Below are positions 10,020 through 36,729 of a DNA stretch of 64,000 nt, piece by piece. A program made the position numbers and the translations under genes. Within the stretch, counting starts at the first letter, position 1, and the number at the start of each line of letters is the position of its first letter. This stretch comes from Microglena sp. YARC (Eukaryota > Chlorophyta > Chlorophyceae > Chlamydomonadales > Chlamydomonadaceae): contig CM039462.1 in NCBI GenBank assembly GCA_022414725.1, forward strand, positions 119,082,470 to 119,146,469, in the 5' to 3' direction. The notes below the pieces were generated by a model that was not told the origin of the DNA, did no database searches, and saw only the letters and a list, made by a program, of their open reading frames with translations.

Positions 10020-10443
10020 AGGTTTAGAAGTACAAGATTTATTTTTCGAAACCAGCCAGGCTGTTGAGTTACATGCTGTCCAGAAAGCCAGAGCCAGCGG
10101 CATAAGTACAACATTTGGTTTCCGAAACCGGCCAAGCTGTTGAGGTACATGTTGTCCAGAGACCCGGAGCTGGTGGCACAAGTACAACATTAATTTCCGA
10201 AACCAGCCAGGCTATTGAGATACATGCTGTCCAGAGAGCCGGAGCTGACGGCGCCAGTACAACATTTAGTGTCTGAAACAGGCCAGGCTGCTGATGTACA
10301 CATTGTCCAGAAAGCCGGAGCTGACGGCGCGAGTACAACACTTAGTTTCCGAAACTAGACAGGCTGCTGAGGTACATGTTGTCCAGAGAGCCAGAGCTGG
10401 CGGCGAAAGTACAACATTTAGTTTCCGAAACTAGACAGGCTGC
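10020..10443 (-). repeat. Tandem dead copies of the PDZ-gene terminal exon (about 75 bp, 5 extra copies)
   Basis: Downstream of the gene's stop (10418-10420, minus strand), the last 75 bp or so of the final exon recur about five times, at landmarks near 10368, 10291, 10217, 10142 and 10066. Each copy still resembles the codons for SSGFLDNMYLSSL plus a stop. The copies have diverged by substitutions and short indels. Confidence 0.85.
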
Positions 10444-12293
10444 TGAGGTACATGTTGTCCAGAAAGCCAGAGCTGGCTGCGTAAGCAAGAATAGCAAAAG
10501 CAGGACCAACAAAGGCTACTACGAGACCCAGGATGAGTTTGGTATCATCTCTCTGCAGCAAGAGTAATGGGGGAGGTGTGTGGGTGGCGAGTGGGGTGGG
10601 CGGGATGGTTTGGTTTGGTTTGGTTTGGTTTAGTTTGGTGGATTTGTTTGGGTTGTGCATGTGCGGTTTGTGTGTGTGTGCGTGCGTGTGGGGGTGGGGG
10701 TGGGGGGGGGCAGGGTTGTTTCGTGTTAGGATGGTTAGAGCATGTTGAGCGTGTGCATGGTGTGCATGTCGGTAAAATGATTGTTAGGGGTTCAGTTCAT
10801 CATTTTTTTTTCGTTTTAGCCCCTCCTGATATCATGGTTGGGCTAGTCCCTTTAGCTTATTTAGTTACGCCTGGACTGTAACAACATGCACATGTGTGTG
10901 AACATGGTTGCACGCGTAGAGGGATCAAGAACTTGAACAAGACAACAGGCGCAGCGGAGAGGAAAGGCAACACTGGGGTGGGGTGGGGAGTGGGGTGGGG
11001 GGAAGATGGGTATGAATTAGAGGCAGGTTGGTTTTGGGATTGGTTAAGGTTAATAATACATCTCTGCTTTATGACCTAGAATAAAAGGAACAAGGACTAG
11101 TCTAAATCAAAATAGGAAACTAGGAAACTAGGAAACTAGGAAACAGGAAACTAGGAAACTAGGAAACTAGGAAACTAGGAAACAGGAAACTAGGAAACTA
11201 GGAAACTAGGAAACTAGGAAACTAGGAAACAGGAAAAAGATCATAGGAAACAGACGTAGTAGAGATCTTTAAAACAAGTCCTATGCAGCATCGCAAGCGA
11301 CGCAGAAAGTTGGCGTAGTGTGTTGGCAACGGAACAAAAGTTGGCAAGGGACTGGAGCTGACCGAAGCCGGTATGTTATGAGACAGCTGGCTGACGTGTC
11401 AAGCTTCAATTTTTTTGTTGGTCAGTCGGACAAAAGGACAACGGGGTAATCCTGGGGGGGCCCGCCCCCCAGAAGGGGGGGCTCACCCAAAAATTAAACC
11501 AAACTAGGAAACAGACATAGAAGAGAGCTTGAGAAAAAGGAAAAAAAGAGAACGCCTGGAGGGGCATGGTGTTAATGGGACCCTCCCGTACGCCGCAGCT
11601 GGGGAAAGTCACCATGGCAGACATAGTAAGTGTTATTCTCCAGGCGGTAGGGACTCTCTAGAGCTTTAGATAATAAACAAGGTAATCAATTTACAAAGTC
11701 TCTTTTACCACTTTTCTTTTAGCAGTCCTGATATGACATTTTTAGTTCGACACAATGCACTTTGAAGGTGGATGGCCTTTGATCCATTCAATTCGAATCT
11801 TGTATGCTAGTAGGTGGGTGTTGGTAGGTGTCTATCTTGTATGTAAAAGTAACGATAACGCCTGGTGGGGCGTGGTGTTAAGGGAGCCCGTCGTACACGG
11901 GTGGGGAGCAGTCTCCTACCTCAACTGGACAAGCTACCATCGCGGTAGACAACGACCTGCAACGCCAAGAGCGACCGAAGGAGGGGTCAAACCCCCGACT
12001 CTTCATCCTCAAGCGATCTGGTCTAAGAGAGCTTTAGATAGAATAGAAGAAACAAGTAAACATTTAACGTCTGGCTTGATTAAAATAAATGAAAGTGCCA
12101 TTCACTTTATCATCAATTGCCACCGAACTGCCATGTTTGTTATTATATTATTCAAGTGCCACACGTTTATCATCGACTGCCATGAACATTATTATGTTAT
12201 TCAAGTGCCATGTATATTATTATATGATTCAAGTGCCACTCACTGTATCATCAACTGCCACGTATATTATTATCATTATTATTATTATTATTA

Positions 12294-12330
<37 letters not shown>

Positions 12331-12399
12331 GTTATTCAAGTGCCATGTATATTATTATATTATTCAAGTTCAACTCACTGTATCATCAACTGCCACGTA

Positions 12400-12434
<35 letters not shown>

Positions 12435-14966
12435 TATTTATTATATATTATTCAAGTGCCATGTATATTATTGTAATATTCAAGCGCCACTCACTGCATC
12501 ATCAACTGCCATGTAGGCTTGCCTCCTCTCAATACGCTGTCGGACTTCGTTGTCCAGCCTCTTCTGGCGAATGGTTTCCTCGTACCGAGATGCAAGATTA
12601 TTGGCTGTGAGCAGGAAAATTGAAAACGAAAATTGAAAATGGTTACTCCTTGCCACGGTGCGTGGGATTGAAGGAATCTTCCAGTTCGCTTGCACAGGGG
12701 AATGGTTACTTTGATGGGTTTTACTTTCGCTGAATGCAAATGTGCCTGGGCTCGGACTACCATGGGACAGTAGCTGCAAGCCAGCAGTGTTTGTATTCCA
12801 TATTCATGTTGGCCAGGTTGAGTAGCTACTTGGGCAACTCAAGCCTGATTTCAGGATTGTTGCATAGCCATCGCATGGCGGAATTGTTGCATGGCAGAAT
12901 TGTTGCATAGCCATCGCATGGCAGAATTGTTGCATAGCCATCGCATGGCGGAACGTGAATTGCAGAGCCTGGATGGGTTGGGGGGCAGCACCAGACCCAT
13001 GCGATGCCATTCAACGACAGAATGGGGACGCAGTGGCGACGCATCATCAGAAAGGAAAACAGCTGCAAGGAAGATATGGTTGCCATTTAAACATTCATTC
13101 AAACATGCATTCATCCATTAATTTATTACTTCATTTCCTGATTTATCCAAACAAACATTGATTCATATGCCAATTCATCCGTCCATCAATCTACCTATAA
13201 ATCCACCCATAATTTCGTTTGTTGGTTTGTCCATCCGTCCATCCATCCATGCGTTCACTCACCCACATACACACTCAATCACTGACACACTTATCAGACA
13301 CTAGACATGACACTGCACAACAGACTCACCAACTCAACCGCATTCAACCAACCCAACCACATCCAACCACGTAGACACTAGACAAGACACTGCACGACAG
13401 ACTCACCAGCTAACCGCATTCAACCAAACCAACCAACCCAAGCGGCATTCAACCTTATAGACACTAGACAAGACACTGCACGACCGACTTACCAACTCAA
13501 CTGGCATTCAACCAACCCAACCAACTCAACCAGCATTCAACCACACAGACACTAGGCAAGACCCTGCACGACAGAGTCACCAACTCAACTGCATTCAACC
13601 AACCCAACCAACCCAACCGGCATTCAACCACATAGACACTAGACAAGACACTGCACGACAGACTTACCAAGGGTAATGCCGCTATCATCATACTTAGTTT
13701 GGGGTTCAGTTCACCAATGCTTTTCTTTTTAGCCCTTCCTATCACGGTTGGGCAAGTCCCTTCAGCCTATTTAGCCTACCCCTGGACTGTAACAGACAGA
13801 CAGACAGGGCCATCAGTATCACTGGCACACAGACACAGACAATGCCAACTCAACCACATTCAACCACATGTTAATTTTTAAAATATTACACACCTATAGT
13901 AACTTAGTTAAGAATAATTATAATAATAAACATGACAAATAAAAAGAACAGGCACTAGACAAGACACTGGACGACAGACTTACCCAGAGTAATGCCGCTA
14001 TCATCTGACTTAGTTTGGGGTTCAGTTTATCAATGCTGTTCTTTTGCGCCCTAAAAAGAATAGAAACTGCAAGAGACTGGCCGACAGACTTACCCAGAGT
14101 GATTCCGTTATCGTCTGATTCGGAGCCATCACTATCACTGACTAGATTTTCCAGGGATCCCAACACACCGTTATCGCCTGCCAAGCAGTAAGGTGGGCGG
14201 GTTTGAGAGGTGGGTGGGTGGGTGGGTTTGGAGAGGTTTGGGTGAGGGTTGGGTGAGAGGGTTTGGGTTTGGGGGGTAGGGTGAGAGGTGTGTTAGTGAG
14301 GGGGGTTGAGTTGAGTTCAAGTGGGTGGGTGAGTTGCAGTATATTTTGATAATTGATATTTGGTATGCATGTATTCTTACAGTCCAGGGGCACCCAACGA
14401 GGTTAAAGGATATATATTTCATTTATGTTGCATAAATTGCAGTTTTTTTGTTAAGCTCGGGGGACATGGAATTGAAAACGGTGAGCAGCCCAGAGTTGGC
14501 TGAAAAACCATGTAACAATTCAAATTCAAATTTGTTACACTCTTAAAGTACACACACACATACACACTCACTATGTCCAACCAGCTGAAAAACAATGACA
14601 AGCCCCCCCCCCCCCCCCCCCCCCCCCTCCCTATTACCAAGCTCAAGTATGAATATCCTCTAGTTATTCCCCCTCCTCCCTCCCCCCCCTTCCCCCTCCC
14701 CATCGCACACGCACAAATATGAGTACTCCCCTAGTTTTTCCCCCCTTCTTCCTCTATCCCCCCCCTCCCCTCCCCCTCTCCCAATCGCACACACAAAAAT
14801 ATGAATAATCCCCTAGTTCTGCCCCCTCCTTCCTCTCCCCCCCCCTCCCTTTTATTATTATTATTATTATTATTATTAGTAGTAGTAGTAGTAGTAGTAG
14901 TAGTATTATTATTATTGCAGGATTCTTCTTCTTCTTCTTCTTCTTCTCCTTCTCCTTCTCCTTCTC

Positions 14967-14997
<31 letters not shown>

Positions 14998-17542
14998 TAA
15001 TAAGATTCATTTATTTTTCATTAGCGCCCTTTCCTTACTTTGCACAGCCTGGGGACTAGGCTCGGGTAGTTCTGGAGCAGCTGTGATAAAGTTGGGTTGC
15101 AACCAGATCTCCACGGGCAGCGTCCGTCGCATTCTCAAGGCATCCTTCACAAACCTCAAGGAGGGTCTGCAAAGAGATAGGTTGGGCTGGTTTGGTTTGG
15201 TTTGGCTCTGGGTCTGGGTTGGGTCTGAGTCTGGGTCTGGGTTGGGTCTGAGTCTGGGTCTGGGTTGGGTCTGAGTCTGGGTCTGGGTCTGGTTCTGGGT
15301 TTGGTTTGGTTTGGTTTGGTTTGGTTTGGTTTGGTTTGGTTTGGTTTGGTTTGGTTTGGTTTGGTTTGGTTTGGTTTGGTTTGGTTTGGTTTGGTTTGGT
15401 TGGGATGGGTTGGGTTAGGTTGGGTTGGGGTCAGGGTTGGGGTTGGGTCTGGGGTTGGGTTGGGCAGGGTTGGGTAAGGCTGGGTTGGGTCTGGGGGTGG
15501 GTTGGTCAGGGTTGGGTTGGGTTGGGCAGATGGTTGGGCAGATATTTGTTGGTTGTAGTGCCCATCAAGCATGGCCCTTGGTAACGAGACATGAATTGCC
15601 TGCCATAGCAGTACAAAGTGAATCAAACTTGACCAAATTGTAAATGAAATTTGACCCAACCCATGACAGTAGGGCCAAATTTAATTCGTTGTACCACCTC
15701 GTTGCACCGCTGGGTCAGAAAAATCTGCTGTACATCTGAGTGCCCTTCAAGTGTGGCCCTTCGTAATGTGACATAGTTGCCTGACGTAGTAGTACAAATT
15801 ATAAAGAACAAAGCTTAAAACTTCATTCAACCTTCACATGAGGTGGCTTTTCTAGTGTTCTTATTGGTGGTTGCCCCATGTGCATACAGTGAGATCTTGT
15901 GGTGTGTGTGTGCGGTGGTGGTGTGTGTGTGGTTAGGGTGTGATGGGTGGTGGGGTGGGGGTATCTAGGTATCCACGGTATCTAAGCCAGTAAGGACCAA
16001 TCCAATGATTCATTCAACCTTCACATGAGGTGGCCGTTCTTATTGATGGTTGCCCCCAATGAAAGCAAACGGGCTGGCTCTCTTAATGTCTCGCCTCGTA
16101 ATAAGGCGTTATTTTGATTTCCTTGTTTACATATTCAATCTTCACGAGAGAGGCACATTAGCATGACATGAATCATTCGACAACACTGGAAAATCATAAT
16201 CCTTTTTTCTTTCAGCTACAAGCAACATCTTCTGGGCAGCTCCCCTGCCTGGCTATTGAGCCTAACCAATTGCGACCCAGTGCACCTTGAAGCTGACACA
16301 AGCAGAAGTCCAGAACTGCTAAAATATTTTGGTTTGTCTCAGGAGCTGTCTAAAGGAGCTGCCGAGAAGCTACTGCTTAACTATTCAGGTTTGGATCAGG
16401 GGCTGGCTCAAGGAGCTGCCGAGAAGCTACTGAAATATTTGAGTTTGGCGCAGGAGCTGGCTCAAGGAGCTGCCGAGAAGCTACTGAAATATTTGAGTTT
16501 GGCGCAGGAGCTGGCTCAAGGAGCTGCCAAGAAGCTACTGAAATATTCGAGTTTGGCTCAGGAGCTGGCTCAAGATGCTGCCGAGAAGCTACTGAAATAT
16601 TTGAGTTAGGCGCAGGAGCTGGCTAAAGAAGCTGCCGAGAAGCTACTGAAATATTTGAGTTTTGCGCAGGAGCTGGCTAAAGGAGCTTCCGAGAAGCTAC
16701 TGAAATATTTGAGCTTGGCTCGGGAACTGGCTCAAGGAGCTTCCGAGAAGCTACTGAATTGTTTGAGTTTGGCTCAGAAGCTGCGGAGAAGTTACCACTC
16801 ACAGCTGATAAACAAAGCTCTCTTCCTTAAGCTTTCACAAGAGATGCAAATTCGCATGACATGAAAAATTCTGATTTCAATTCAAATTCAAATTCAATTC
16901 GCATGACATGAAAAATTCTGATTCAAATTCATATTCAATTCGCATGATATGAAACATCCTGATTTAAATTTAAATTTAAATTCAAATTCACATGACATGG
17001 CACATGCTGATTTAAATTCAAATTCAAATTCAATTCGCATGACATGAAACATCCTGATTTTAATTAAAATTAAAATTTGCATGACATGAAACATTCTGAT
17101 TTAAATTCAAATTCAAATTTGCACAACATGAAACATTCTGATTCCATCCACCTTTCATTCATCATGAACATGTCAGTAGTCTTGACCGGGTCGCTGACAG
17201 CTAGCACCTTCATTCCCGCTACAATGCCAGCCTTGTCAGCAGGGCTGTCCTCCAGCACACCCACCACCACCACTGCCTGTCCAGCGCCATCGGCCAGATT
17301 CTCTAGTAGGAGGCTGCGTTCAAGCCCATTTGAGGGTACTGACACCCTGCATGTGTGTGTGTGTGTGGGGGGGGTGGGTGGTGGGTGGGGGGGTGGGGGG
17401 GGATGTGTGTGTGAGTGTGTGCGTGTGCATGTGTGTGTGTGTGTTTTTGTGTGCCGTCAGCCAGACTCTCTAGCAGGAGGATCCGCTCAAGCCTGTTTGA
17501 AGGTACTGACACCCTGCATGTGTGTATATATGTGTGTGTGTT

Positions 17543-17616
<74 letters not shown>

Positions 17617-20344: not shown

Positions 20345-20573
20345 TGTGAATGTAAGATTGTTACAACGGCATAGGCTCGATAGAGGAGAAGATGCTATTA
20401 AGCGCAACAGGCGCAATCATATAGAATAGGGATGTGTACTGCAAGGTACTGCAGTCACGTGCAGGCCACAGCTAGCCTGTGGCCTGGCGGCAGGCAACAC
20501 GGGTCCCGGAGGAAGTAGGTACCGGTGTGCATTATGCCAACTCAGAGACTGATATATAAATCAGTAAATAACA
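20345..20573 (-). repeat. 3' LTR (229 bp)
   Basis: Identical to 24485-24713. It is preceded on the plus strand by target-site copy TATGG at 20340-20344 and followed by the purine tract (C-run on plus) at 20574-20583. Confidence 0.95.
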
Positions 20574-22589
20574 TCCCCCCCAATTCTAGGTATTCTTGAA
20601 CTCAAGCATTCCTGGAATTAACTGAGGGGCATAAGGAAATAATAATACAAGGGCTAGTAAGACTTTTGAGATGGTTGCTAATAGCTGATATGAAAGACTG
20701 TGAATAATAAATTATTTGGGACAGGATTCAAGGGGGTATAGCACATTAGCGGATGTCTTCAAAGAAATGTCAGTCTACTAAAGTAGCTGGCCCTACTAGG
20801 AAACTGCAAAGGGACAGCAGGCTAGATTGCCGGGAAGCTGCTAGGAAACTAAAGGGGACTGCAGATAGGCTGCAGGCTAGGTTGCAGAGAGGTTGCTGGG
20901 AAACTAGAAAGAAGCTGCAGGTAGGCTGCATGCTAGGGTGCAGAGGGGCTGCTATGGGGATGGAAGGAAACTTCCAGGCTTGGTTAAATCTTGTGGAGAT
21001 AACCTTGGTTACGAGAAGGGCATGGTGTGAGGCTGGAGAATTTGTTCTTAGACAGGATGTCTGGACTAGTCCCCCCCATAATTTGGGTGTTTGTAGCTGG
21101 ATTGCTTGTAACCTAAATTAAAACGCAGACATCTGGTAGAGACTAGGATAATTCTAAATTCAAAATTTGACTGCCTGTGAAAGTACATGGGGCAGTACAT
21201 GTGGCATACAATCTAATAAATTCTAGAGTGTTCAGGTCTAATACAACAGATGGGGAGCAATGGTTTAACTACTAGGTGCCTGGCGTGCTGGGGAAGCTGT
21301 CAAGGGCAAGCTAGGGTCGCCGCAAGGGCACTAGGAGCGGATAAGAAAATTCAGGGACGGTAGGGACTGCTGGTGCTGTTGGGACCTGCTGGGTCATTGC
21401 AGATCAACGTAAGCATAGCTATGAATGCTGCAGGGGAGCTGCAGGGGATACAACTAAAGAGCTCCAGGGAAAACAACTGATGATGTCTGTACTAGTCCCC
21501 CATAATTTGGTAATGAAGGCTTAGTGCTGAAATGCTAAATTAGAATCATGCATGCATCATGTTGTTAGCATGAGAACATCGAAAGGGTAAAAGACTTGAA
21601 CTGCACGTGGGTAAGTACATGTGGCAGTACGGGGCAGATCATGAATTAATTCCTAGAGTGTTCATTACTAATTGTGTAACAGATGGTGGGGATCATCAAA
21701 TCGCTGCAGGTTAATTAGCTAGTTGTATTATTGCCTAGGCAACACTATGAGCTGTAGGAGCACTAGTACATGGGCGGTACGCTAGTGCTGTACAGCACTG
21801 CAGTTTGCTGTAATGTAGATCATCACACGAGGGTATCGCTCATGTAAACGAATCTGCATTACAGCATTGCGGTTCAGTGCACAGCAGTTTAGTACATCAG
21901 TACATTAGCAATGGGCAGTACGTTACTTCAATCTGTGCAGTACAGTACACGCAGATATAAATCAGCTCACGAGGGTATCGCTCATGCTTATTTCTGCATG
22001 TAAGAAGGGTCACATCACATGGGTGCACAGATGCATGCAATGCATAGGTCAGTCCCCCCGTCAGTACATCAGGACATTTCCCTTCCATGATATATACCTC
22101 CCCATGTTCCCCTTCACAAGTGTGTCCTTCATCCGATACCCACAAGGATGCATGGTCGCTTGCATGTCCTGTGGGGGTAGCGTGGGGAGGGCAGGTGGGG
22201 ATTGCCTTGGAGGGCAGAGGTGAGTGGAAGGTGGTGTGATCTGGTGATAGTTATCATGTCAGGAGTGGGGCTGACAGTATGCCAGGTGGTGGTGGTGTTG
22301 CTGTGCTTGGTGGGAGTTGGTTCCTCATCACTAGAGCAGGATGTGGATGTGGATGTGGGGACATAGGTGTTCATGTCCCCCCCATGCAAGTCATTAGAGA
22401 CATCAGGAGGGAGGACAGAATGGTCAGGCAATTCCCCCCCATGCAAGTGGTTCATGTCATGAGTGTTGCACTCATCATCAGCACTTGCAAGTTGGAGAGC
22501 TGGTGTGATTTTCCTATGGGGGATGGCAACGAGGATACACAAGGGTGTTGCAGGGATGGTATCAGATGCAAGTACAGGAATAACTGCAG

Positions 22590-22960
22590 GTGAGGGTGAG
22601 TGTAGTCCCCCATGCAGGTGAGCGTGATCAACAAGAGAGCATGTTAGTTCAGCTGCAGGTGAGGGTGAGTGTAGCCCCTCATGCAGGTGATTGTGATCAA
22701 CAGGTGGGCATGTCGGTTCAGCTACAGGGTAGGTGGGGGTGAGTGTAGCCCCTCATGTAGGTGAGTGTGATCAACAGGTGAGCATGTTGGTTCAGCTGCA
22801 GGTGGGGGTGAGTGTAGCTCCTCATGCAGGTGAGTGTGATCAACAGGTGAGCATGTCGGTTCAGCTACAGGTGGGGGTGAGTGTAGCCCCTCATGTAGGT
22901 GAGTGTGATGAACAGGTGAGCATGTTGGTTCAGCTGCAGGTGAGGGTGAGTGTAGCCCCC
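22590..22960 (-). repeat. About 60-bp minisatellite inside the LTR element
   Basis: About six units contain GGTGAGTGTGATCAACAGGT and GGTTCAGCTGCAGGTG. On the minus strand they encode repeats of the type HTHLHEGLHSPPP..EPTCSPVD. A one-base change near 22720 shifts the frame between units. Imperfect duplications also occupy 21056-21260 versus 21483-21690. Confidence 0.85.
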
Positions 22961-23889: not shown

Positions 23890-24484
23890 ACGTTGCGAGG
23901 CAACAGGGGATAAATGGAATCTGGTGGTGGGGGGGTCGAGTTGGAGGTGGGGGCCAACTGGGGAGAGAACGGGACGGTGTAAGGGGAGGGGAATGGGATC
24001 TTGATGCCGTTTGTTCGGAGTGATGGATGGATAGGGGATTACGAGGGTGGGGCAGGGGAAGGGGGGATGGAGTGCTTGTGGGAATCGGCGATCCAAAGGG
24101 ATCCAGCGGATTACCGGGGTTTGAACTGTGCCAAGCGGCAATGTTCGACGACAGGAGCTTCTCTTAAGCTGGGGTCGTAAGCAAATTGATCGTCTGAGAT
24201 CAATACAGCGCTGTGTGGGTCTCGGTGAGGGCGTCGTCCTATACTCACTTCATAGATTTCGGTGACTTGTGGTCGCTCTTGCTTGCTCCAGTCGTAGGAC
24301 GCAGTGGCAGATCCAAGGATTCTTGGTAGGAAGCGGCAGGCGGAGCAGCGGGAAGTAGGATCCGCACAGGGAGTCCAGGTGCTTAGTTAAAACTCGGGCC
24401 TTCGACTAGTCAGAGGGGAACTGATTCCGAACGCGGAAATCAGCGGCTGTTCTTCGTTAGCGTCTAAAGATGGCGCACATAACC

Positions 24485-24713
24485 TGTGAATGTAAGATTG
24501 TTACAACGGCATAGGCTCGATAGAGGAGAAGATGCTATTAAGCGCAACAGGCGCAATCATATAGAATAGGGATGTGTACTGCAAGGTACTGCAGTCACGT
24601 GCAGGCCACAGCTAGCCTGTGGCCTGGCGGCAGGCAACACGGGTCCCGGAGGAAGTAGGTACCGGTGTGCATTATGCCAACTCAGAGACTGATATATAAA
24701 TCAGTAAATAACA
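24485..24713 (-). repeat. 5' LTR (229 bp)
   Basis: Identical copy of 20345-20573, followed on the plus strand by the target-site duplication TATGG at 24714-24718. Confidence 0.95.
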
Positions 24714-24738
24714 TATGGGGGGTATGGCGCCTGCCCTG

Positions 24739-26470: not shown

Positions 26471-27119
26471 ATGTCTATCCGCAACCTTGTACATTCTGCG
26501 TTCAAGCATGCTGCAGAGCAAGTACTACCCCCTCTGACCAAGAGTAAATTCGAGGAAAAGAGGGTTCTAACACCCGACGAATTTGTCGCAGCAGGCGACT
26601 TTTTGGTTCGGGCCTGTCCTACCTGGGCCTGGTAAGCGGAAATGAAAGCGGGAACGCCATTCAGCGCTCGCCGTGTTGGTTTTGCGCAGTATGAATAATC
26701 TGGCATCAGTCTTCCTTTCTTAATTGTAGACAAGTTAATTACCTCGCTGCTTAGGTCCCGACGCTGCGAAATGTCACAGGGTCTCACTATGGCACAGTCA
26801 CAATAACAGAACTGGCAGGAAGTTACGAAAACTTACAGGACGCTTGCGCTTACATCCCATGCGGTGACGTGTATTTTTTGTGGCAAGCTCGCCCGATTGT
26901 AATTCTACGCGCGTTATCCTCCAGCACCTGTCCCCTTGGCCCAGCACGGACGTCTTAGCCTTTATCATACTCCCGCACTTGCTGATCAGTCTTCGAGCTC
27001 GAATATATACGCTCTTATGCGCCTGGTATCTACCGAGAATCCCGTATCGAAATGCTTTTGCCACCGCTCGCTCCTTCCAAGCGCTGCGACATGTACGTGT
27101 GACAAATCCCCCCCCCCCG

Positions 27120-27155
<36 letters not shown>

Positions 27156-30100
27156 ACACACACACCCCACACACACCCCACCCCACCTGCCTTCCTCCAG
27201 GGATGCTGGGGACCCCAAGAAGGGCCGCCCATTCCTGCCGGCAGACAAGCAATGCCTCGTGACTCGAGGAGGTGAGTGCCAGAAATGTTTCGACAAGGCT
27301 GGGGTCGGACAGATGGGGTCGGGATCTTTAGGGTTGTTTGGAGGTCTCATAGGGACTAGGGTTTTTCTGACCCTTTCACCAAGACCATTGACTACCTTCA
27401 CTTTGCCTGGCTTACTCAGGGCTCTCCCGTCTTCTTGAATCTTGTCTTCTACCTCTGCCACTGTCTTCTCTGTCACTGTTTCTTTTTTGGGCTGCACATG
27501 ACAGCTTCCAGCCAGCTCCTTCAGCCAGCGACCGAGTCCAGCCCAAAGCTTTCAGCTACATTTGAATGCCTGTCGTATCAGCTTTCAAACGCACTAGCAA
27601 GCTTCAGGTTTGGCCCAAGGATAGGGAAGGGGAGCTGCCTAGAAGCTGCTACCCGTAGCCCCCCAAATAAACAGTGCCAGAGAAGCTGTGCAGCTTCAAA
27701 GCCCCTCCTTCCTCCTTCCTACCCACACCAACACCCAATCACCCACTCACCCACCCACCTACCCACCCACCACTCACCCACCCACCCACCCACCCACCCA
27801 CATCAACACCCACCCACTCACCCACTCACCCACCCACCCACCCACCCACATCAACACCCACCCACTCACCCACTCACCCACTCACCACCCACATCAACAC
27901 CCACCCACCCACATCAACACCCACCCACTCACCCACTCACCCACCACCCACCCACATCAACACCCCACCCAGCCCACCCACCCACATCAACACCCACCCA
28001 CCCACTCACCCACTCACATGCCCACCACCCACATCAACACCCACCCACTCACCCACTCACCCACCTACCCACCCACATCAACCTCCCACCCACTCACCCA
28101 CTCACCCACCCACCCACCCACATCAACACCCACCCACTCACCCACTCACCCACCCACCCACCCACATCAGCACCCACCCACCCACCCACATCAGCACCCA
28201 CCCACTCACCCACTCACCCACCCACCCACCCACATCAACACCCTCACCCACCCACTCACCCACCCACCCATCCACTCACCCACTCACCTACCCACTCACT
28301 CACTCACCCACCCACCCACCCACCCACCCACTCACTCACCTACCCACCCACCCACCCACTCACCCACCCACTCCTGTTCCAGTCCCCTGCATGCGCCGTG
28401 CCACCAATCTTGAAAGCTATGACCCTGAGTCAGAATATGCCATGAAGGGCGACGAGGATGGGTGGACTGCAACCCATGCAGATCCCTCCGTTCCCAGCAA
28501 GGTATTGAAATATAATCAGGTGTAGGTTTGTAGTTGTGGGGTTGGGTGTGTGGGTGTAGGTGTGTAAGTGTAGGTGGGTAGTTGTGGGGATGGGTGTGTG
28601 GGTGTGGGTGGGTAGGCGTGAGTGTGGGAAGTTCTGGGTGGGGTAACACCACTCCTACGTCCTCCTGGTTCCCTCTGTCCAGTCGGCGGCAGAGGAATTC
28701 CCTCGCCTGACGAGCCAGAGGCAGATGCTGTGGTGTTCATGTATTCTGGAGCTATTATTATTACTATTATTATTATTACTATTATTATTCAACCCAACCA
28801 CCCAACCAACCTAACCCAACCACCATCCCAACCCAACCACCAAACCAACCACTACAGGCAGCGGCAGAGGAAATCCCCTCAACTGACAAGCTAGAGGCAG
28901 ATGCTGTGGTGTGTGTATTCGGGTGCTATTGTTATTATTATTATTGTAAGCATTATTATTATTAGTATTATTAGTATTAGTATTGGGATTATTATTATTA
29001 TCCAACCCAACCCAACTACCAACCCAACCACCAACCCAACCCAACCACCACAGGCAGCGGCAGAAGAAATCCCCTCAATCGACGAGCCAGAAGCTGATGC
29101 AGGCGTCGATGACGTTCCAGACATTAATGAGCTGGAGGAGGAGGACGAGGCTGCTATCCCAGCCACAGGTGCTGCAGGTACGTCTGACTGACTGACTGAA
29201 TTGACCTTAACGTCTATCTGACTGACTGACTTATTTACTGACCTGACCTTAACGTCTGACTGACCTGACCTTGACGTCTGATTGACTGACCTTGACGTCT
29301 GACTGACTGACCTTGACGTCTGACTGACTGACCTTGACGTCTGACTGACTGACCTTAACGTCTGACTGACTGACCCGACCTTAACGTCTGACTTACCTGA
29401 CCTTGACGTCTGACTGACTGACCTATTAACTGACCTGACCTTCACGCCTGACTGACCTAACCTTGACGTCTGACTGACCTGACCTTGACGTCTGACTGAC
29501 CTTAACGTCTGACTGACCTGACCTTGACGTCTGACTGACTGACTCATGTATAATGCAGGTACAGCAGGAGCAGGGCCAGGCTACCTACGTGCCGAAGGTG
29601 GGTATCGCAACATCGCATCAACACGCACTCGCACACCAGCACCAGCACCTGCAGCTGCGCCAACCACACTCTTGTCTCTTTTTGCTTAGTACGCACTTGA
29701 GTTGGACCTTCCGTACCAGCACCTGCACACCAGCACCTGCACTCACACACCAGCACCAGCAGCTGTGCCAACCATCTCTTTGTCCTTAGTAGGCACTTGT
29801 GTTGGACCATTCCCAACCAGCACCTGCACACCAGCGCCAGCACCTGCACTCACACACCAGCACCAGCACCTGCACTCACACACCAGCGCCAGCACCTGCA
29901 CTCACACACCAGCGCCAGCACCTGCAATCACACACCAGTACCAGAACCTGCACTCACACACCAGCACCAGCACCTGCACTCACACACCAGCACCAGCACC
30001 TGCACTCACACACCAGCGCCAGCACCTGCACTCACACACCAGCACCAGCACCTGCACTCACACACCAGCAGCTGCGCCAACCACGCTCTCATCTCTTTGT

Positions 30101-33100
30101 CCTTTGTACGCACTTGAGTTGGACCTTCCCTACCAGCACCTGCACACCAGCATCTGCACCTGCACACCAGCGCCAGCACCTGCACACCAGCTTTTGCACC
30201 TGCACTCACACACCAGCACCTGCACACCAGCATCTGCACCTGCACTCACACACCAGCACCTTCAGCTGTGCCCACCATCTCTTTGTGCTTAGTAGGCACT
30301 TGTGGCTGGTCGGAACTTCTAGAACTAGAATTCTCGGATTTTCAGGCCAAATCCAAGTTACAGACTACGAACTACGACCTGATTTGAATGATCAAAATCC
30401 CAATCATCTGCTGAATTGCGATGACGTCTGACTGACCTGACCTTCACGTCTGACTGATCATTGTTGTATTGCCCTGATGTACACCTGCAGAGCCTGATAT
30501 GGCTTGACCTGACCTTGTGGTATTGTCTTGACTTTGTTGCATTGCCTGATGTACACCTGCAGAGCCTGAAGATAACATTGTCCGAACACGCACATACGAC
30601 TTGTACATTACATATGACCAGGTAAGACTTAAGTTTGTTGCTGTTATTCTTGTTGTTGCTGTTATTCTTGTTGATGTTGTCGCTGTTATTCTTCTTGTTG
30701 CTGCTGCAGTTTTTGTTGGTGTTGTTATTCTCGCTGTTGCTGTTGTTATTCTTGCTGTTGCTGTTGTTATTTTTGTTGTTGCTGGTATTCTTGTTGTCGC
30801 TGCTGTTGTTATTCTTGCTGTTGTTGTTTTGTTGTTGTTGTTGTTGTTGTCGTTGTCGTTGTTATTCCTGCTGTTGTTGCTGCTGCAGTTTTGTGTTGCT
30901 GATGTTATTCTTGCCGTTGTTGCTATTGTAATTGTTGTTTTTGCTATTCTTGCTGTTGTTGTTGTTGTTGTTGCTGTTGTCCCTACCTACAGTACTACCT
31001 ATCCCAATCACACCCCACCCACCCACACCCTACCCAACCACAACACACAACCTACCCAACCACAACATACACCCTGTCCACCCACAACCCACACTCTGCC
31101 CACCCACAACTCACAACCCACCCTACGCACCCACAACACACTACCTACCCACCCACAACACACTACCCACGACCCATCCACTCACAACACACACTACCCA
31201 CACTACGCACCCACAACACACAACCTACCCACCCACAACACAGTACCCACGACCTATCCACCCTACCCACCCACAGCACTCCCTACCACCCTACCCACCC
31301 ACCATACCCACCATACCCACCATACCCACCCACAACACACCCTACCCACCCTACCCACCCACCCTACCCACCATACCCACCTACAACACACGCTACCCAC
31401 CCTACCCACCCACAACACTCCCTGCCCAACCTACCCACCCACAACCACACACCCTACCCACCTACAACACACCCTACCCACCCTACCCACCACAACACAC
31501 ACCCTACCCACCCACAACACACCCTACCCACCCACAACACACACCCTACCCACCCACAACACACACACCCTACCCACCTACAACACACACCTACCCACCC
31601 TACCCACCACAACACACCCACCCTACCCACCACAACACACCCTACCCACCCACAACACACCCTACCCACCTACTACCCACCCTACCCACCCACCCTACCC
31701 ACCCTACCCACCCACAACACACACCGTACCCACCTACAACACACCCTACCCACCCACAACACCCACCCTACCCACCCACAACACCCACAACACACACCCT
31801 ACCCACCCACAACACACCCTCCCCACCCTCCCCACCCACACCCACACTACACACCCACAACACACACCCTTCCCAACAACAACACACACTACACACACTA
31901 CACACCCACAACACACACCATACCCGCCCACAACCTATCCACCCACAACTCACAACCCACCCTACCCACCCACAACCCACTACCCACATTCTACCCACAG
32001 TACTACCAAGTGCCAAGATTGTGGCTTGTGGGGTATGACGAGACACGTCATCCTCTGGCTCCTGCACAGGTATGTAGCCTATGTGTAGATTGTGATTGGG
32101 TGGCTGGCTATTGGGTGGCTTTGTGTAGATTGTGATTGGGTACGTGGCCCTGTGTAAATTGTGACTGGGTGGCTGGCTATTGGGTGGGTGGCTATGTGTA
32201 GATTGTGATTGGGTGGCTGGCTATTGGGTGGGTCGCTATGTGTAGATTGTGATTGGGTGGCTGGCTATTGGGTGGGTGGCTATGTGTAGATTGTGATTGG
32301 GTGGCTGGCTATTGCGTGGGTGGCTATGTGTAGATTGTGATTGGGTGGCTGGCTATGTGTAGATTGTGATTGGGTGGCTGGCTATTGGGTGGGTGGCTAT
32401 GTGTAGATTGTGATTGGGTGGGTGGCTATGTGTAGATTGTGATAAGGTGGGTGGCTATGCGTAAATTGTGATTGGGTGGCTGGCTATTGGGTGGGTGGCT
32501 ATGTGTAAATTGTGATTGGGTGGCTGGCTATTGGGTGGGCATGTATGTGTAGATTGTGATTGGGTGGCTGGCTATTGGGTGGGTGGCTATGTGTAGATTG
32601 TGATTGGGTGGCTGGGTATTGGGTGGGTGGCTATGTGTAGATTGTGATTGGGTGGCTGGCTATTTGGTGGGTGGCTATGTGTAGATTGTGATTGGGTGGC
32701 TGGCTATTGGGTTGGCGTGTATGATTTTGATTGGTTGGGTGGGTGTATATTACAGTCCAGGGGTAGCCAAATAGGCTAAAGGGACTAGCCCAACCTATAA
32801 GGGGGGGCTAATGTGAGGGGGGATATCGGGAGGGGCTAAAGCGAAAACGAGAAAGCCCATCTGTAGATTGTGATTTTTTTTTTTGAAGGTGTGAAAGGAA
32901 TTTCACCCCAGGAGATGGGTCTCCCGACACAAACCAGCGACTCCGAGGATTCAGGCCGAATGGTGTTGCCACGCCTACAAAAGAGTAGCCGTACTTAGCT
33001 TAGGGTGGCTGCCTGCGTCAGTGACAACTGACTCGTAGGGTGGAGAGCCAAGCTTTTCTTGTCTGCAGGCGCTCGAAAACAGCTTTTCCTTTCTGAGGGC

Positions 33101-36100
33101 GCAAGAAACCAGCTTTTCCTTTCTGTAGCCGCACGAAAACAGCTTTTCCTTTCTGAAGGCGCAAGAAACCAGCTTTTCCTTTCTGTAGCCGCACGAAAAC
33201 AGCTTTTCCTTTCTGTAGACGCAAGAAAACAGCTTTTCCTGTCTGTAGCCACACTAACACAGCCATCTAGGCAACACCATCCATAACCTAAACCACGTCA
33301 CCCAGACCTTTTTTTTCTGTAGCCGCACGGGAAAAAACAGTGGCCATCTGGCTCCCATCACAGATCCTACACAGCCATCTAGTCAACACCATCCGTAACC
33401 TAAACCACGTCTCCCAGACCTTTTTTCTGTAGCTGCACGGGAAAAAACAGTGCCCACCCATTTCCCGGCACAGATCCTACACCGCCATCTAGTAAACACC
33501 ATCTGTAACCTAAATCAAATCATTCAGAGCTTTTCTTGTCAGCTACAAGTAGTAGCTTCTAGGCAGCTCCTGCTGCGCCCAAATATTCAGCATTTATGGA
33601 CAGCAGAGTGTGTCAGCTTCAAGGTGCACTAGGCTTGGCTGAAGAGCTAGTCAGGGGAGCTGCCTAGAAGCTGTCGCTCGTTGCTGAAAATAAAAGCTAT
33701 GGGTGGAGTGGTCCATGTTACAAGGGTGTTGACTAGATGTCTATGTAGGATCCGAGCCGTGTGGGCACTTTTTTTCTTCGTGCAACGCAGTGCAAATTGT
33801 GTGACTCGGTGTGGCCCCAGTGCGAAGCGCAGTGCCCTGGGGGGGCATTTCTGACTAGTTTAGCCAGACCCATGCGGCGCCATGCAGCGACTGAATGACA
33901 AGGTGTCGGCAAAAGAAAAACAGCGCTTGTGGGTGTAAATGTATAGGGTACATGGAGGATTAGCTGGATATGTAAGGGGGTCTGTAGGGGCAAGTTAGAT
34001 GGCAAGTCATGCCTATGATTCTATATGCATTCGTTTATTTTAACCACACACGCATGCACACAATTGCACACAAATGCATGCACTTATTTGAACCACGCAC
34101 GAGCACACGCAAATGCACACATTTATTTGAACCGCACGCACGCTCACAAATGAATGCATTTATTTGGACCATACACGCATGCACACACATGCATGCATGC
34201 ATTTAACCACTCGCACGCACACAAATGCATGCATTTGTTTTAACCGCTCGCACGCACACAAATGCATGCATATCATTGTTGACCCATCTATCCACTTGTG
34301 TACTTCAATAGACAATTAGTCTCCAATCGTTTTCATACTCTTTCTCCCCCCCCCCCCCCCCCCCCCCCCCACCCCCACCCCCCACTCCCACCCCACCCCA
34401 ACCCCAACCCAAAGATTCTTGAGGATGTGAGTGAGGAGCATGCTAGGAAAACCATAACCGTCGAGATTCATCCTAACCTATCGATCACAGCCGCATCCAT
34501 TCATCCATGTAAACACGCCGAAGTGATGAAGAAGCTTGTCGACAACATCATCGAAGCAGGGAAGACATTCCCAATTGAACAGTGAGTTATATGATGTTAT
34601 GTTATGTTTTTTTTTCTTTCATTATTTCTTGTTATATTATATTCGATGGGGGGGGGGGGGGGGGGGGCAAGAATAAAGTTGGCTGACCGCATGTTTGGAA
34701 GTTGTTATTTTGACCCCTAGAGACCCCCCCCCCCCCCTTTCCCCCCTTTGAGACCTCATATCTAGACACCCAAACAGTATTACATTGTGAAAGGGGGGTT
34801 CATGAGCATCATCTAGTCCAGGCCTTTCCAACCATATAACCAAAAGATACAAATATCAAGTTCGGACAAAGTTATTTATATTTTAGTATTTTTACAACTT
34901 TCTTGGGCGCTCAGCAGTCGTCTGCGCCCTTGGAGATGATCACAAAGGTATTAAAACAACTGAAGGCGTTATTTATCTGTCTATCTATCTTTATCATCAT
35001 CGTTATCATAGCTTAATCGACACAACTTGTATTCTGGAGCCTGAGGGTCTGCCCGGGTGGTATGAGTGTATAATTTTTTGTGTGTGGGGGGGGAGGGGGA
35101 GGGGTGTTCGTGTGTGTGTGGGGGGGGGTGGGGGGCTCGACCCCAGGCTCAACTGCTTTAGGAACTTCGTAGGGGACCAGAACTCAGAACGCGCATCCGA
35201 ACGCCCTGCGCGCGCGCCTTTTCCCGCCCAACTGCCGCTCGTGCGAAGCTGGGCGCGAAGGTCTGGGTGACGTCCAGCCTGGATGTAGCCTGAATGTACC
35301 TTCCAGGAGATCCACCGATTACACTGCGTGTAACTTACTAACGACTGCAGATTCGCACTCCTCTCGTCGAGACATACTCATTGGTGTACCTCACGCTCGA
35401 AAATTCGCACTGGCAAGGAAGTTACACGAGGTACAAATAAAATTGGGGAAAACGGTCGGACCCCCCCCCCCCCCCCCCCTCGTATCTCGGCCCGCCGTGG
35501 GTGTATCGACATGATTTTTTCCCCGACTAAAGCTCGCGGTTCTCTATCCATATCGAACATGCAGTACAATTTTATTTTTCTTGCCCCCCCCTCGATTATT
35601 TTATTTTATTTTTATTATATTATTTTATTATATTCGCTTTATCAAGCTGACTTAGAAGCAAGGGAGGAAACGAGCAGATAGTGTACAATATATATCGTAC
35701 GAAAATAGGCCCATATGGGCCACCACCCCTGCTCCTACTTCAGTTACCTTGTCCCTTGCTGTGGCCTTTTGTGAGCCAAATAGGCCAAAATAGTAAAGTC
35801 TGTAAAGGCACTTGCCACCCTGCCTCATTCCTTTGCCCCATGACTTTGTGCGTGTAAGCTTGCACTAAACGCCACCACCCCTGTTTCATACTTCGCAGTT
35901 ACCTTGTCCCTTGCCTTAGACTTTTGTGAGCCAATATAGGCCAAAATAGGCACTTCAAAACAAACAGGGGCACGCACAAAAGGCATTATAGGCCTGTAGA
36001 GTCACTTTTTACTTGCCACCATGCCTAAAACCTTTGCCCCATGACTTTGTGCGTGTAAGCTTGCACTGAACGCCACCACCCCTGTTTCATGCTTAGCAGT

Positions 36101-36729
36101 TACCTTGTCCCTTGCCTTAGACTTTTGTGAGCCAATATAGGCCAAAATAGGCACGCACAAAAAGGCAAAATAGGCCTGTAAAGTCACTTTTTACTTGCCA
36201 CCATGCCTAAAACCTTTGCCCCATGACTTTGTGCGTGTAAGCTTGCACTGAACGCCACCACCCCTGTTTCATGCTTAGCAGTTACCTTGTCCCTTGCCTT
36301 AGACTTTTGTGAGCCAATATAGGCCAGAATAGGCACGCACAAAAAGGCAAAATAGGCCTGTAAAGTCACTTTTTACTTGCCACCATGCCTAAATCCTTTG
36401 CCCCATGACTTTGTGCGTGTAAGCTTGCACTGAACTCCACCACCCCTGTTTCATGCTTAGCAGTTACCTTGTCCCTTGCCTTAAACTTTTGTAAGCCAAA
36501 ATAGGCACATAAAATAGGCACGCACAAAAGGGCAAAATAGGCCTGTAAAGTCACTTTTTACTTGCCACCATGCCTAAATCCTTTGCCCCATGACTTACTG
36601 CGTGTAAGCTTGCACTAATCGCCACCACCCCTGCTCCTACTTCGCAGTTACCTTGTACTCTTCCTCAAGTTCATTGCATCAGTGGTTCCAACCATCCAGT
36701 ATGACTACACCATGTCTGTGGGAAACTAG
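26471..36729 (+). CDS. ATG3: Autophagy-related protein 3 (E2-like enzyme), 9 exons, 296 aa
   Basis: Exons: 26471-26631, 27201-27271, 28383-28501, 29054-29177, 29559-29597, 30563-30621, 32001-32069, 34415-34581 and 36648-36729. Every intron is GT-AG, phases agree, and the spliced length is 891 nt. ATG3 is the E2-like enzyme that takes ATG8 from ATG7 and transfers it to phosphatidylethanolamine on the growing autophagosome membrane. Diagnostic segments, in order: CPTWAW (exon 1), GRPFLPADKQCLVTRG (exon 2), DGWTATH (exon 3), an acidic flexible region with DVPDINELEEED (exon 4), NIVRTRTYDLYITYDQ (exon 6), YYQVPRLWLVGYDETR (exon 7), the catalytic motif HPCKH with Cys246 (exon 8) and FLKFIASVVPTIQYDYT at the C-terminus (exon 9). 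The total is slightly shorter than the roughly 310 residues of land-plant ATG3. The gene looks functional. Its introns are almost entirely tandem repeats, many carrying copies of exon borders. Confidence 0.95.
27108..27200 (+). repeat. Poly-C tract and CA/CCCCA run before the ATG3 exon 2 acceptor
   Basis: A 45-nt C run with one G is followed by ACACACACCCC words and the acceptor CTTCCTCCAG at 27200. It acts as an extreme polypyrimidine tract. Poly-Pro frames here are artefacts. Confidence 0.9.
27478..27690 (+). repeat. Dispersed MITE-like repeat family A2 (ATG3 intron 2)
   Basis: This starts TTCTTTTTTGGGCTGCACAT and ends GGGGAGCTGCCTAGAAGCTG followed by AATAAACAGTGCC. It parallels 6466-6812 and 38640-38790. 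Confidence 0.7.
27720..28375 (+). repeat. (CCCA/CTCA)n minisatellite ending at the ATG3 exon 3 acceptor
   Basis: Hundreds of CACCCACC and CACTCACC words contain a higher-order unit with ACATCAACACCCACCC about every 30-70 bp. All three plus frames are open over long distances for purely compositional reasons and are not genes. Confidence 0.95.
28683..28930 (+). repeat. Two partial upstream copies of ATG3 exon 4 (pseudo-exons)
   Basis: Copy 1 (28683-28757, preceded by CTGTCCAG) and copy 2 (28857-28930, preceded by ACTACAG) match the first 45 or so bases of exon 4 (29054). They then diverge into (TTA)n sequence. The spacing is about 175-195 bp, with CCAACC arrays between copies. Copy 1 has a one-base deletion relative to the exon. 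Neither copy has an obvious in-frame donor. Confidence 0.9.
29180..29545 (+). repeat. Array starting at the ATG3 exon 4 donor (GTCTGACTGACTGACC units)
   Basis: Units of about 21-35 bp with CTTGACGTCTGACTGACTGA begin within the donor sequence GTACGTCTGACTG at 29178 and fill intron 4. Confidence 0.9.
29620..30275 (+). repeat. 27-bp minisatellite in ATG3 intron 5 (CACCAGCACC type)
   Basis: Units such as ACACCAGCACCAGCACCTGC with ACTCACA repeat in three blocks. The blocks are joined by longer units containing CAACCATCTCTTTGTCCTTA and AGGCACTTG (about 29770, 30090 and 30270). Open frames are compositional. Confidence 0.9.
30470..30562 (+). repeat. Duplicated 3' splice site of ATG3 exon 6
   Basis: TGATGTACACCTGCAG plus AGCCTGA appears at about 30476-30502 and again, 72 bp later, at the real exon start (30563). 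The upstream copy is a decoy acceptor followed by only seven exon bases. Confidence 0.85.
30630..30985 (+). repeat. (GTT/GCT)n array starting at the ATG3 exon 6 donor
   Basis: Words such as GTTGCTGTTATTCTTGTTGT fill the 5' third of intron 6. Long Leu/Val-rich frames are artefacts. Confidence 0.9.
30984..32000 (+). repeat. (ACCCACCCACAACACACCCT)n array ending at the ATG3 exon 7 acceptor
   Basis: The array is entered by CTACCTACAGTACTACC at about 30986, a near copy of the real exon 7 junction (CTACCCACAG then TACTACC at 32001). It then runs for about 1 kb. Frames over 300 codons here are compositional. Confidence 0.9.
32075..32740 (+). repeat. About 44-bp minisatellite starting at the ATG3 exon 7 donor
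   Basis: Units with GGGTGGGTGGCTATGTGTAG and ATTGTGATTGGGTGGCTGGC repeat about 14 times. The first unit overlaps the donor region (GTATGTAGCCTATGTGTAG at 32070), so the unit is seeded by intron sequence at the splice site. Confidence 0.9.
32752..32862 (-). repeat. Dispersed repeat family B, inverted copy in ATG3 intron 7
   Basis: This begins TACAGTCCAGGGGTAGCC and ends with GGGGCTAAAGCGAAAACGAG. Confidence 0.75.
32885..33000 (-). repeat. Dispersed repeat shared with 39476-39580
   Basis: Both contain TTTCACCCCAGGAGATGGG, CCAGCGAC-CCGAGGATTCAG and GAATGG-GTTGCCAC in order. It is possibly a short retroposon. Confidence 0.6.
33040..33255. repeat. 30-bp minisatellite (AGCTTTTCCTTTCTG units, 7 copies)
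   Basis: Alternating subtypes (GAGGGCGCAAGAAACC and TAGCCGCACGAAAAC) give a 60-bp higher-order period. Related single units lie at about 33310 and 33420. Confidence 0.9.
33531..33708 (+). repeat. MITE family A with long terminal inverted repeats
   Basis: The left end GAGCTTTTCTTGTCAGCTAC plus CTTCTAGGCAGCTCC is inverted at the right end as GGAGCTGCCTAGAAGCTG plus GCTGAAAATAAAAGCTATG. 33710-34340 holds a family E fragment (33750-33925) and a GCATGCACACAAATGCATGC-type tandem (34040-34270). Confidence 0.8.
34347..34414 (+). repeat. Poly-C and CCCCA run before the ATG3 exon 8 acceptor
   Basis: A 24-nt C run, then CCCCACTCCCACCCC and CCAACCCAAAG directly precede the exon at 34415. A matching G run (34648-34667) follows the exon 8 donor. 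Confidence 0.9.
35700..36640 (+). repeat. 182-bp tandem array of the ATG3 exon 9 acceptor (5 extra copies)
   Basis: Units at about 182 bp (35739, 35898, 36099, 36281, 36463, then the real one at 36648) contain CGCCACCACCCCTGTTTCAT, then CTTAGCAG or CTTCGCAG, then TTACCTTGT. The last eight or so bases copy the start of exon 9. The real acceptor is the final unit. Minus-strand 61-62 codon frames repeat simply because the DNA repeats. Confidence 0.93.

Follow-up and report, generated by a model that had tools for sequence, protein, structure and literature searches.

Tandem copies of exon edges together with their splice sites are frequent in the introns of the green alga Microglena sp. YARC: in six genes of its 568-Mb genome, 28 of 76 splice junctions have them, with 82 copies in total. 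Arrays of this kind have been named mirages in amphioxus, with the Adh, globin, PGBD5 and TnC genes among those described (PMC3087553, PMC3902484). In the one assembly studied here, the unit of the algal junction arrays includes the exon-intron boundary, at 5' and 3' junctions both, which places them within the mirage definition. We consider that they are probably the overhang of local tandem duplications that arise everywhere and are then filtered by selection, with no preference for the junction as such.

Copies of exon edges in the window

The window, i.e. the whole stretch of 64,000 nucleotides that was analyzed, holds two of the six genes, ATG3 and a PDZ-like gene (Table 1). The ATG3 product has 296 aa, with clean GT-AG splicing in the model, and matches PF03987 (1.2e-58) and PDB 3vx8_B (2.5e-79), while the protein of the PDZ-like gene gave no PDZ match against Pfam. 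A further gene at 4.1 kb (model P0125) has the SBP domain PF03110.

Table 1. Positions of genes, exons and copies in the window
Feature	Position	Strand	Remarks
SBP-domain gene, last exon	4131..5819	+	four arrays wholly inside, periods 21, 9, 60 and 18, each divisible by 3
90-bp array across SBP-gene stop codon	5737..6073	+	
PDZ-like gene, 6 exons	10418..19237	-	fits database gene model P0001
PDZ-like exons e1 to e6	e1 19237-18981, e2 17346-17152, e3 15166-15039, e4 14177-14094, e5 12604-12495, e6 10552-10418	-	
PDZ-like coding end, stop and 3' flank, 5 copies	10028..10417	-	76-bp period
PDZ-like exon 5 donor, 4 copies	12093..12399	-	3 of 4 also seen in a second analysis
PDZ-like exon 4 donor, 2 copies	13644..14008 (13644-13689, 13960-14008)	-	GTAAGT intact in 2/2
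PDZ-like exon 2 acceptor, 6 copies	17453..18110	-	each with 54-61 exon nt; CA tracts between
ATG3 gene, 9 exons	26471..36729	+	GT-AG model, Pfam, PDB
ATG3 exons 1-5	26471-26631, 27201-27271, 28383-28501, 29054-29177, 29559-29597	+	
ATG3 exons 6-9	30563-30621, 32001-32069, 34415-34581, 36648-36729	+	
ATG3 exon 4 acceptor, 2 upstream copies	28680..28904 (28680-28728, 28828-28904)	+	with ~47 nt of exon
ATG3 intron 4	29178..29558	+	22-bp array, 98% self-matching; 9-bp direct repeat TGCAG/GTAC at ends
ATG3 exon 6 acceptor, 1 copy	30461..30497	+	7 exon nt and 29 intron nt, 95%
ATG3 exon 7 acceptor, weak copy	30983..31007	+	far end of intron array; score 30
ATG3 exon 9 acceptor, 5 copies	35719..36484	+	182-bp array; AG aligned in 5/5
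ATG3 exon 9 and stop, copied downstream of gene, 2 pieces	36800..37063 (36800-36842, 37004-37063)	+	
61.7-kb exon acceptor (61697), 2 upstream copies	61698..61990 (approximate range)	-	

In the window, self-matches spanning a boundary were counted at a score cut of 36. Of the 26 splice junctions in ATG3 and the PDZ-like gene, 6 have boundary-spanning copies, and so do the stops of the two genes. This is more than chance: copies were found at 8 of 29 boundaries, whereas five runs with shuffled targets each gave 0 of 29, and 10 of 200 points placed at random in 38-57.5 kb had copies. The copies that a sequence-only reading had listed at such boundaries are thus real, that of ATG3 exon 7 being weak, and the self-match search found no copy at this acceptor at the stricter cut of 36. 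At the ATG3 exon 4 acceptor one copy spans the boundary and the other nearly does so, with 174 and 196 bp between copies. In the ATG3 exon 9 array, the inner units beside the junction are 90-100% alike and the exon-side unit is 65-84% identical to them. The array unit at PDZ-like exon 2 measures 87-93 bp. At the PDZ-like stop, the exon copy and its adjacent unit are 98% alike, which indicates that boundary units sometimes take part in recent duplication. The copy of the ATG3 stop was absent from the earlier list.

Concerning the SBP-domain gene, the terminal array that had been proposed is present, with the stop inside it, but no copy of the last acceptor (~4130) was found by boundary self-match search. 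Amplification of the 61.7-kb exon acceptor, also proposed, is borne out by its upstream copies. Array periods are divisible by three in 4/4 exonic versus 11/32 intronic cases (P 0.023), the four exonic arrays all belonging to one exon. The idea that repeats are special to introns was rejected: the contrast between 37-58 kb (2.6%) and the introns (51%) is only local, because in 13 stretches at arbitrary round positions elsewhere TRF coverage varies from 0.003 to 1.000, its median being 0.265.

Junction copies in six genes

The four genes outside the window were located by codon score and then recognized by eye. The RPL23A stretch (L009) adjoins the window's upstream neighbour stretch, and stretches L015, L017 and L018 lie elsewhere on contig C1. 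SMC2 is supported by a PDB match of its first five exons and by one hinge exon above the Pfam cut-off, spermidine synthase by Pfam matches of two of three exons, and RPL23A by one of two exons tested. The ABC transporter has two exons that pass the Pfam cut-off and one that falls short of it, all three in extension L027; the four L017 exons that were tested gave no Pfam match, and we take them as putative exons of this gene from the sequence of its family.

Three of these four genes show junction copies. RPL23A has them at 0/6 junctions at the strict cut (2/6 at a laxer one), so the proposal that every multi-exon gene is affected fails outside the window. Copies are found at acceptors and donors alike (15/39 and 16/37 at the laxer cut), and all but one of the 82 lie on the side of the adjoining intron, at a median offset of ~250 bp; inverted copies occur at 1/76 junctions only. 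Among positive junctions, the greatest length of exon included in a copy varies from 7 nt to at least 60 nt, where the query ended, and is thus not fixed. An exon-like segment in stretch L008 (6110-6349) has copies on both sides; it was excluded from the counts, as it has no confirming family and was noticed for its copies.

It is very improbable that the arrays are an assembly artefact made of collapsed or stuttered repeats. Long arrays are error-prone, the upstream stretches L007 and L010 contain 5000 and 6000 N, and one amphioxus mirage is described as misassembled in the draft genome (PMC3087553/PMC3902484). However, most of the algal copies visibly differ, with unit-specific changes, and many loci lie on one large contig with their coding frames intact.

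The splice dinucleotide is intact in 67 of the 82 copies, which lengthen introns and supply predicted decoy sites, as had been claimed from the window, and do so again in other genes. Such intactness might point to a role of the copies in regulating splicing or expression, with selection holding them as alternative sites. Moreover, two database models deviate from ours: P0008 omits three pieces of ATG3 (exon 3, exon 7 and a portion of exon 4), and P0001 begins PDZ-like exon 2 33 nt later. Yet the intact fraction is about that predicted by overall identity (median 0.89, squared 0.79), and gives no sign of selection on the decoys, and the segments of ATG3 exons 3 and 7 are kept in five other aligned ATG3 records. 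A regulatory role therefore appears improbable; the decoys would be neutral, with splicing presumably correct despite them; the protein frames are conserved.

Splice junctions as possible birthplaces of arrays

The junction had also been proposed as a preferred seed for repeat growth, for which replication-transcription conflict, R-loops or GT/AG-rich microhomology might be responsible. Several observations do not fit a preferred birthplace. In the window, self-match density declines from intron to exon, and a junction peak is absent. Circular shifts in the window give 3/16 junctions for ATG3 versus 8.9 expected, and 3/10 for the PDZ-like gene versus 4.7 expected, with the exon 1 donor two bases off; both the shift and the point-density tests count inner array units many times over, and their direction is against a junction excess. 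The variable exon portion of the copies also argues against such a seed, as does the spanning of 3/7 tested stops, where no splicing takes place. Array placement is neutral: of 27 intronic arrays (24 TRF rows plus ATG3 e4, ATG3 e6 and PDZ e4, added by hand from self-matches and all three spanning a junction), 6 span a junction versus 4.7 expected at random placement (P 0.32), four of these being found by script and PDZ e2 and e5 added by hand where TRF rows were too short.

By contrast, counting each family once gives a junction excess, as a preferred birthplace would predict. Outside the window, 11/32 junctions are positive versus 16.3% of intron points (P 0.010), and over the six genes, with complexity matched, 15/52 versus 11.5% (P 0.001); a few of the points counted as intron are perhaps exonic, since some gaps between modelled exons (e.g. 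ABC eb-ec, long extension gaps) must hold further exons. The extensions of SMC2 and ABC give 11/18 versus 28.7% (P 0.004), a biased sample because both genes were picked after they had already shown copies; two extension donors with unclear sites (SMC2 f3, ABC f5) were dropped. Copies at 7/7 junctions in the distal part of SMC2 point the same way, as does a report of repeats close to intron-exon junctions in the related C. reinhardtii and Volvox (PMC3887541). Two further points speak against our favoured explanation: outside the window the self-match profile hardly changes across the junction instead of sloping, and in the PDZ-like stop array the boundary unit has shared in recent duplication.

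The counts were also split by the age of the families, judged by identity. Among the youngest copies (identity at least 0.95), 4/76 junctions are positive versus 5.7% of introns, i.e. no excess, in what are small counts. Among older families, junctions reach 34.2% (identity 0.80) and 28.9% (0.84) versus 24.2% of introns at the most lenient identity floor of 0.70, or 34.8% and 30.4% versus 16.9% when complexity is matched. If doubled divergence is allowed for introns, the figures become 23.7% versus 22.4% at a junction identity of 0.88 and 17.1% versus 19.2% at 0.90; with complexity also matched, they are 24.6% versus 15.5% (0.88), 17.4% versus 14.2% (0.90) and 11.6% on both sides at 0.92, with no excess at 0.95. 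The excess thus shrinks toward younger copies, as expected if selection merely keeps the exon copy recognizable. The family-corrected excess stands across the six genes, but it is missing for the youngest copies and becomes smaller or disappears at 0.88-0.92 once a frozen exon is allowed for. We consequently favour pervasive local tandem duplication with a selection filter over seeding at junctions, which is rather unlikely, although a modest junction preference may remain. The full scenario in which splice junctions are hot spots of array birth and over a third of them consequently carry decoy copies, introns grow outward from them and the spliceosome picks the exon-proximal site among near-identical neighbours genome-wide is likewise doubtful.

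Under duplication filtered by selection, local tandem duplication of segments of ~20-200 bp would be ongoing genome-wide, introns included. Duplications within an intron would be tolerated, and those within a coding exon retained only when in frame. Duplications straddling a splice junction or a stop would be tolerated as well, as the copy still attached to the exon would stay functional, and the outward copies would turn into intron or 3' flank and then decay. Repeated unequal exchange or slippage may enlarge and homogenize the array. Because selection would freeze the exon copy, its relatives could remain recognizable up to twice as long, and mirages would seem over-represented among old families.

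Mirages in a green alga

The view of the sequence-only reading that the feature has no known named description does not hold, as these arrays correspond to amphioxus mirages and junction-near repeats have been reported in Chlamydomonas reinhardtii and Volvox. Mirage units measure 10-160 bp in the amphioxus cases quoted, those of BflGb6 being 81-100% alike, and the traits described include normal splicing despite decoys and a length polymorphism that is haplotypic or somatic (PMC3087553, PMC3902484). The algal arrays resemble them in that the unit joins an intron end to an exon edge, at acceptors and donors, with many AG/GT intact. The homogenized inner units and distinct boundary unit of mirages are seen at ATG3 exon 9 but not in the PDZ-like stop array. 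The PDZ-like stop and exon 2 units fit the mirage range, and those of ATG3 exons 9 and 4 are slightly longer. Whereas the amphioxus cases described are single loci, those of the green alga recur across several genes and also span stops, and tandem repeats make up roughly half of their host introns in the window.

In C. reinhardtii and Volvox, tandem repeats are densest in introns and commoner near intron-exon junctions, and in-frame motifs are favoured in coding sequence, all of which resembles the present case; however, the units there are 1-50 bp, and the parts of that report dealing with them make no mention of exon or splice-site copies (PMC3887541). In human segmental-duplication genes, internal tandem repeats at exon-intron boundaries are described as able to create new introns via cryptic sites (PMC2812944). 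There too minisatellites remodel exon-intron structure, but in the alga the exon-side copy appears to be still the exon.

Tandem duplication close to splice sites also recalls intron gain at proto-splice sites, and the introns might themselves have arisen through duplication of an AGGT-bearing exon segment. This would leave same-register repeats at both intron ends, as with the 9-bp run of ATG3 intron 4. Such an origin is nonetheless hardly credible, as only 1/13 introns has such repeats (PDZ-like intron 1 being two bases out of register), a run of at least 8 occurs in 1/156 mismatched control pairs, and the copies adjoin the source exon with its own acceptor or donor, where the model needs the opposite intron end.

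The pattern itself had already been named in lancelets; its frequency is new, and so is its lineage, that of a chlamydomonad-like alga. The protein matches point to Chlamydomonas-like green algae, and a charophyte origin, considered at first, was dropped. Mirages are thereby extended from lancelets to green algae, and introns can lengthen through repeat growth with their exon edges intact. Gene prediction in such genomes may miss or displace exons, as in P0008 and P0001. If the six-gene rate holds genome-wide, the alga would offer a very large natural supply of nearly identical splice sites lying next to one another, and site choice by the spliceosome would become testable directly from RNA reads.

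Window genes and the repeats that fill their introns

The protein of the window ATG3 matches Pfam PF03987 (1.2e-58) and the PDB ATG3 entry 3vx8_B (2.5e-79). It was aligned with the database protein model P0008 and five further ATG3 records, of which three carry the name Chlamydomonas. Exons 3 and 7 are missing from P0008, as is the beginning of exon 4; because the five further records all contain the segments of exons 3 and 7, the repeat-filled part of the gene is probably where this model went wrong. The second model, P0001, is the same protein as that of the PDZ-like gene, with a longer N-terminus and an exon 2 that starts 33 nt later. No PDZ domain was found in this protein by Pfam search, so the name rests on the sequence-only reading. 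The 4.1-kb gene corresponds to the final exon of a gene with an SBP domain (P0125, PF03110). The names of the three models are consecutive (17654-17656), and they therefore appear to be the database models of these three window genes.

Tandem repeat makes up half of the 13 window introns (51% by TRF), and self-matching ranges from 10% to 98% in single introns. The genome is repeat-rich in general, with a median TRF coverage of 0.265 over 13 stretches at arbitrary positions. The SBP exon holds all four of the arrays that lie wholly within coding exons; each of their periods is a multiple of three, compared with 11/32 among intronic arrays (P 0.023). The identical ends of ATG3 intron 4 may have been left by intron gain or by donor-seeded array growth. 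Among the other elements (see table), the pair of direct repeats and the sequence between them look like a young LTR-type element, and the interruption after the ATG3 stop resembles a small inserted element. The repeat stretch L013 is perhaps a satellite or centromere block.

Features of the window and of 10-kb stretches fetched outside it (L008, L010, L013)
Feature	Position	Strand	Description
ATG3	26471-36729	+	Nine exons, GT-AG introns, single open frame of 296 aa
PDZ-like gene		-	Six exons
ATG3 intron 4	29177-29562		Nearly whole a 22-bp array; both ends TGCAG|GTAC
Direct repeats	20345-20574, 24485-24714		230 bp, identical, 4140 bp apart
Open frame	within 20345-24714	-	220 aa, enclosed by the direct repeats; no Pfam match
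Interruption of post-stop copy of ATG3 exon 9	36843-37003		About 160 bp with palindromic ATCATATGAT-like inverted repeats
Dispersed motif ending GCTGCATAGGACTTGT	11274, 25936, 41016		Three occurrences, at most 3 mismatches
62-bp array	2880-3596		Built of sequence partly similar to the motif ending GCTGCATAGGACTTGT
Exon-like frame	L008 6110-6458	-	Each end copied on its outer side; excluded from counts
SBP-gene N-terminal part	L010 about 1903-2061		Upstream of window; stop and frame differences versus database model; L010 also contains 6000 N
Repeat stretch	L013 (G000 C1:20000001-20010000)		All 10 kb tandem repeat, TRF coverage 1.000

Copies of exon edges within and beyond the window

Thirty intron bases and up to 80 exon bases at each boundary were aligned locally against the surrounding non-coding sequence. 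Boundary-spanning copies were found at the ATG3 acceptors of exons 4, 6 and 9, at the exon 2 acceptor and the exon 4 and 5 donors of the PDZ-like gene, and at the stops of both genes. A stricter cut gives positives at 8/29 boundaries (6/26 splice junctions, 2/2 stops and 0/1 start), versus 0/29 in each of five runs on Markov-shuffled targets. The copies that the sequence-only reading had described in these two genes are thus borne out, at every place named in the PDZ-like gene and at three of the four ATG3 acceptors, the fourth (exon 7) having a single weak copy. The acceptor of the 61.7-kb exon is positive as proposed; for the 4.1-kb gene, the stop of the SBP gene is positive and its last acceptor is not. 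The 41-kb gene likewise has no copies at its stop or start, and none were found at the start of the PDZ-like gene or the stop of the 61.7-kb exon. Random points were positive in 110/200 cases in intron interiors, 10/200 at 38-57.5 kb and 10/100 at 19.5-26 kb.

The window covers C1:119082470-119146469 of a 568-Mb assembly. We screened 19 fetched 10-kb stretches for exons by codon score and modelled four genes: SMC2, whose exons 1-5 align gaplessly to PDB chain 9f5w_A (SMC2; 4.7e-85), RPL23A and spermidine synthase, identified via Pfam, and an ABC transporter, with Pfam matches on exons of its extension only. Spanning copies occur at 11/32 splice junctions (SMC2 2/9, RPL23A 0/6, spermidine synthase 3/5, ABC 6/12) and 0/2 stops. 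Two further stretches extending SMC2 and the ABC gene gave 11/18 junctions (7/7 and 4/11), a selected sample, as both genes had already shown copies when it was picked. The feature, proposed for every multi-exon gene, is hence present in five of six sampled genes, RPL23A being the exception.

Pooled, the copies number 82 and belong to 28 of 76 splice junctions; 81 lie toward the adjoining intron, with 50% no farther than about 250 bp away and 90% no farther than 591 bp. The splice dinucleotide is kept in 67 of the 82, the longest exon part per junction varies between 7 nt and 60 nt or more, and inverted copies occur at 1/76 junctions. In the ATG3 exon 9 array, the four inner units match one another at 90-100% in the sequence next to the junction, against 65-84% between them and the exon-side unit. 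A variant absent from the inner units is common to the outermost two, which suggests an array homogenised inside, with edges that retain other states. At the PDZ-like gene stop, the coding part of the coding copy agrees at 98% with that of the next unit, indicating that duplication occurs at the edge too.

The junction as a proposed preferred seed

That junctions are a preferred seed for repeat growth, as had been proposed, is not established. Against it, self-match density in the window declines from intron to exon, being 0.70 at 60-100 bp into the intron, 0.25 in its first 12 bp and 0.18 then 0.08 in the exon, with no peak at the junction; outside, the profile is nearly flat (exon edge 0.37, intron edge 0.27, intron core 0.44). 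Arrays spanning a junction number 6/27 versus 4.7 by random placement, some array additions having been made by hand, and near-end enrichment in introns is slight (30-100 bp versus core, P 0.09).

In favour of the proposal, counting each family once gives 17/58 junctions versus 21.2% of intron sites (one-sided P 0.09), or 15/52 versus 11.5% when complexity-matched (P 0.001). The window alone has no excess (6/26 versus 26.2%), the outside genes do (11/32 versus 16.3%, P 0.010), as does the selected extension sample (11/18 versus 28.7%, P 0.004). However, the excess is absent in the youngest copies and grows with age, as seen when copies are split by identity: 26/76 junctions versus 19.2% for introns at 0.80 or above, 13/76 versus 10.8% at 0.90, and 4/76 versus 5.7% at 0.95. 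Selection would hold one partner of a junction pair still, so that the pair would diverge about half as fast as an intron pair and stay detectable longer. Allowing introns twice the junction divergence, with an intron identity floor of 0.70, junctions and introns stand at 17.1% versus 19.2% (junction identity 0.90) and 23.7% versus 22.4% (0.88); complexity-matched values are 11.6% versus 11.6% (0.92), 17.4% versus 14.2% (0.90) and 24.6% versus 15.5% (0.88). At 0.80 and 0.84, where the floor is limiting, junctions (34.2% and 28.9%) exceed introns (24.2%), also when complexity-matched (34.8% and 30.4% versus 16.9%). We read the junction excess as an effect of survival and detection, on small numbers; a modest junction preference for duplication is possible.

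Relation to mirages and algal repeats

Tandem repeats whose unit includes an exon-intron boundary are called mirages in amphioxus. Among the titles and abstract openings of the matches listed, none describes mirages outside lancelets; similar repeats have been reported in PGBD5, in a paper that also cites TnC (PMC3902484). The introns of C. reinhardtii and Volvox are reported to have the highest density of tandem repeats, which are commoner near intron-exon junctions (PMC3887541). The Microglena feature, seen in five of six sampled genes, is real. It places an already named phenomenon far from lancelets, and at an unusually high frequency.
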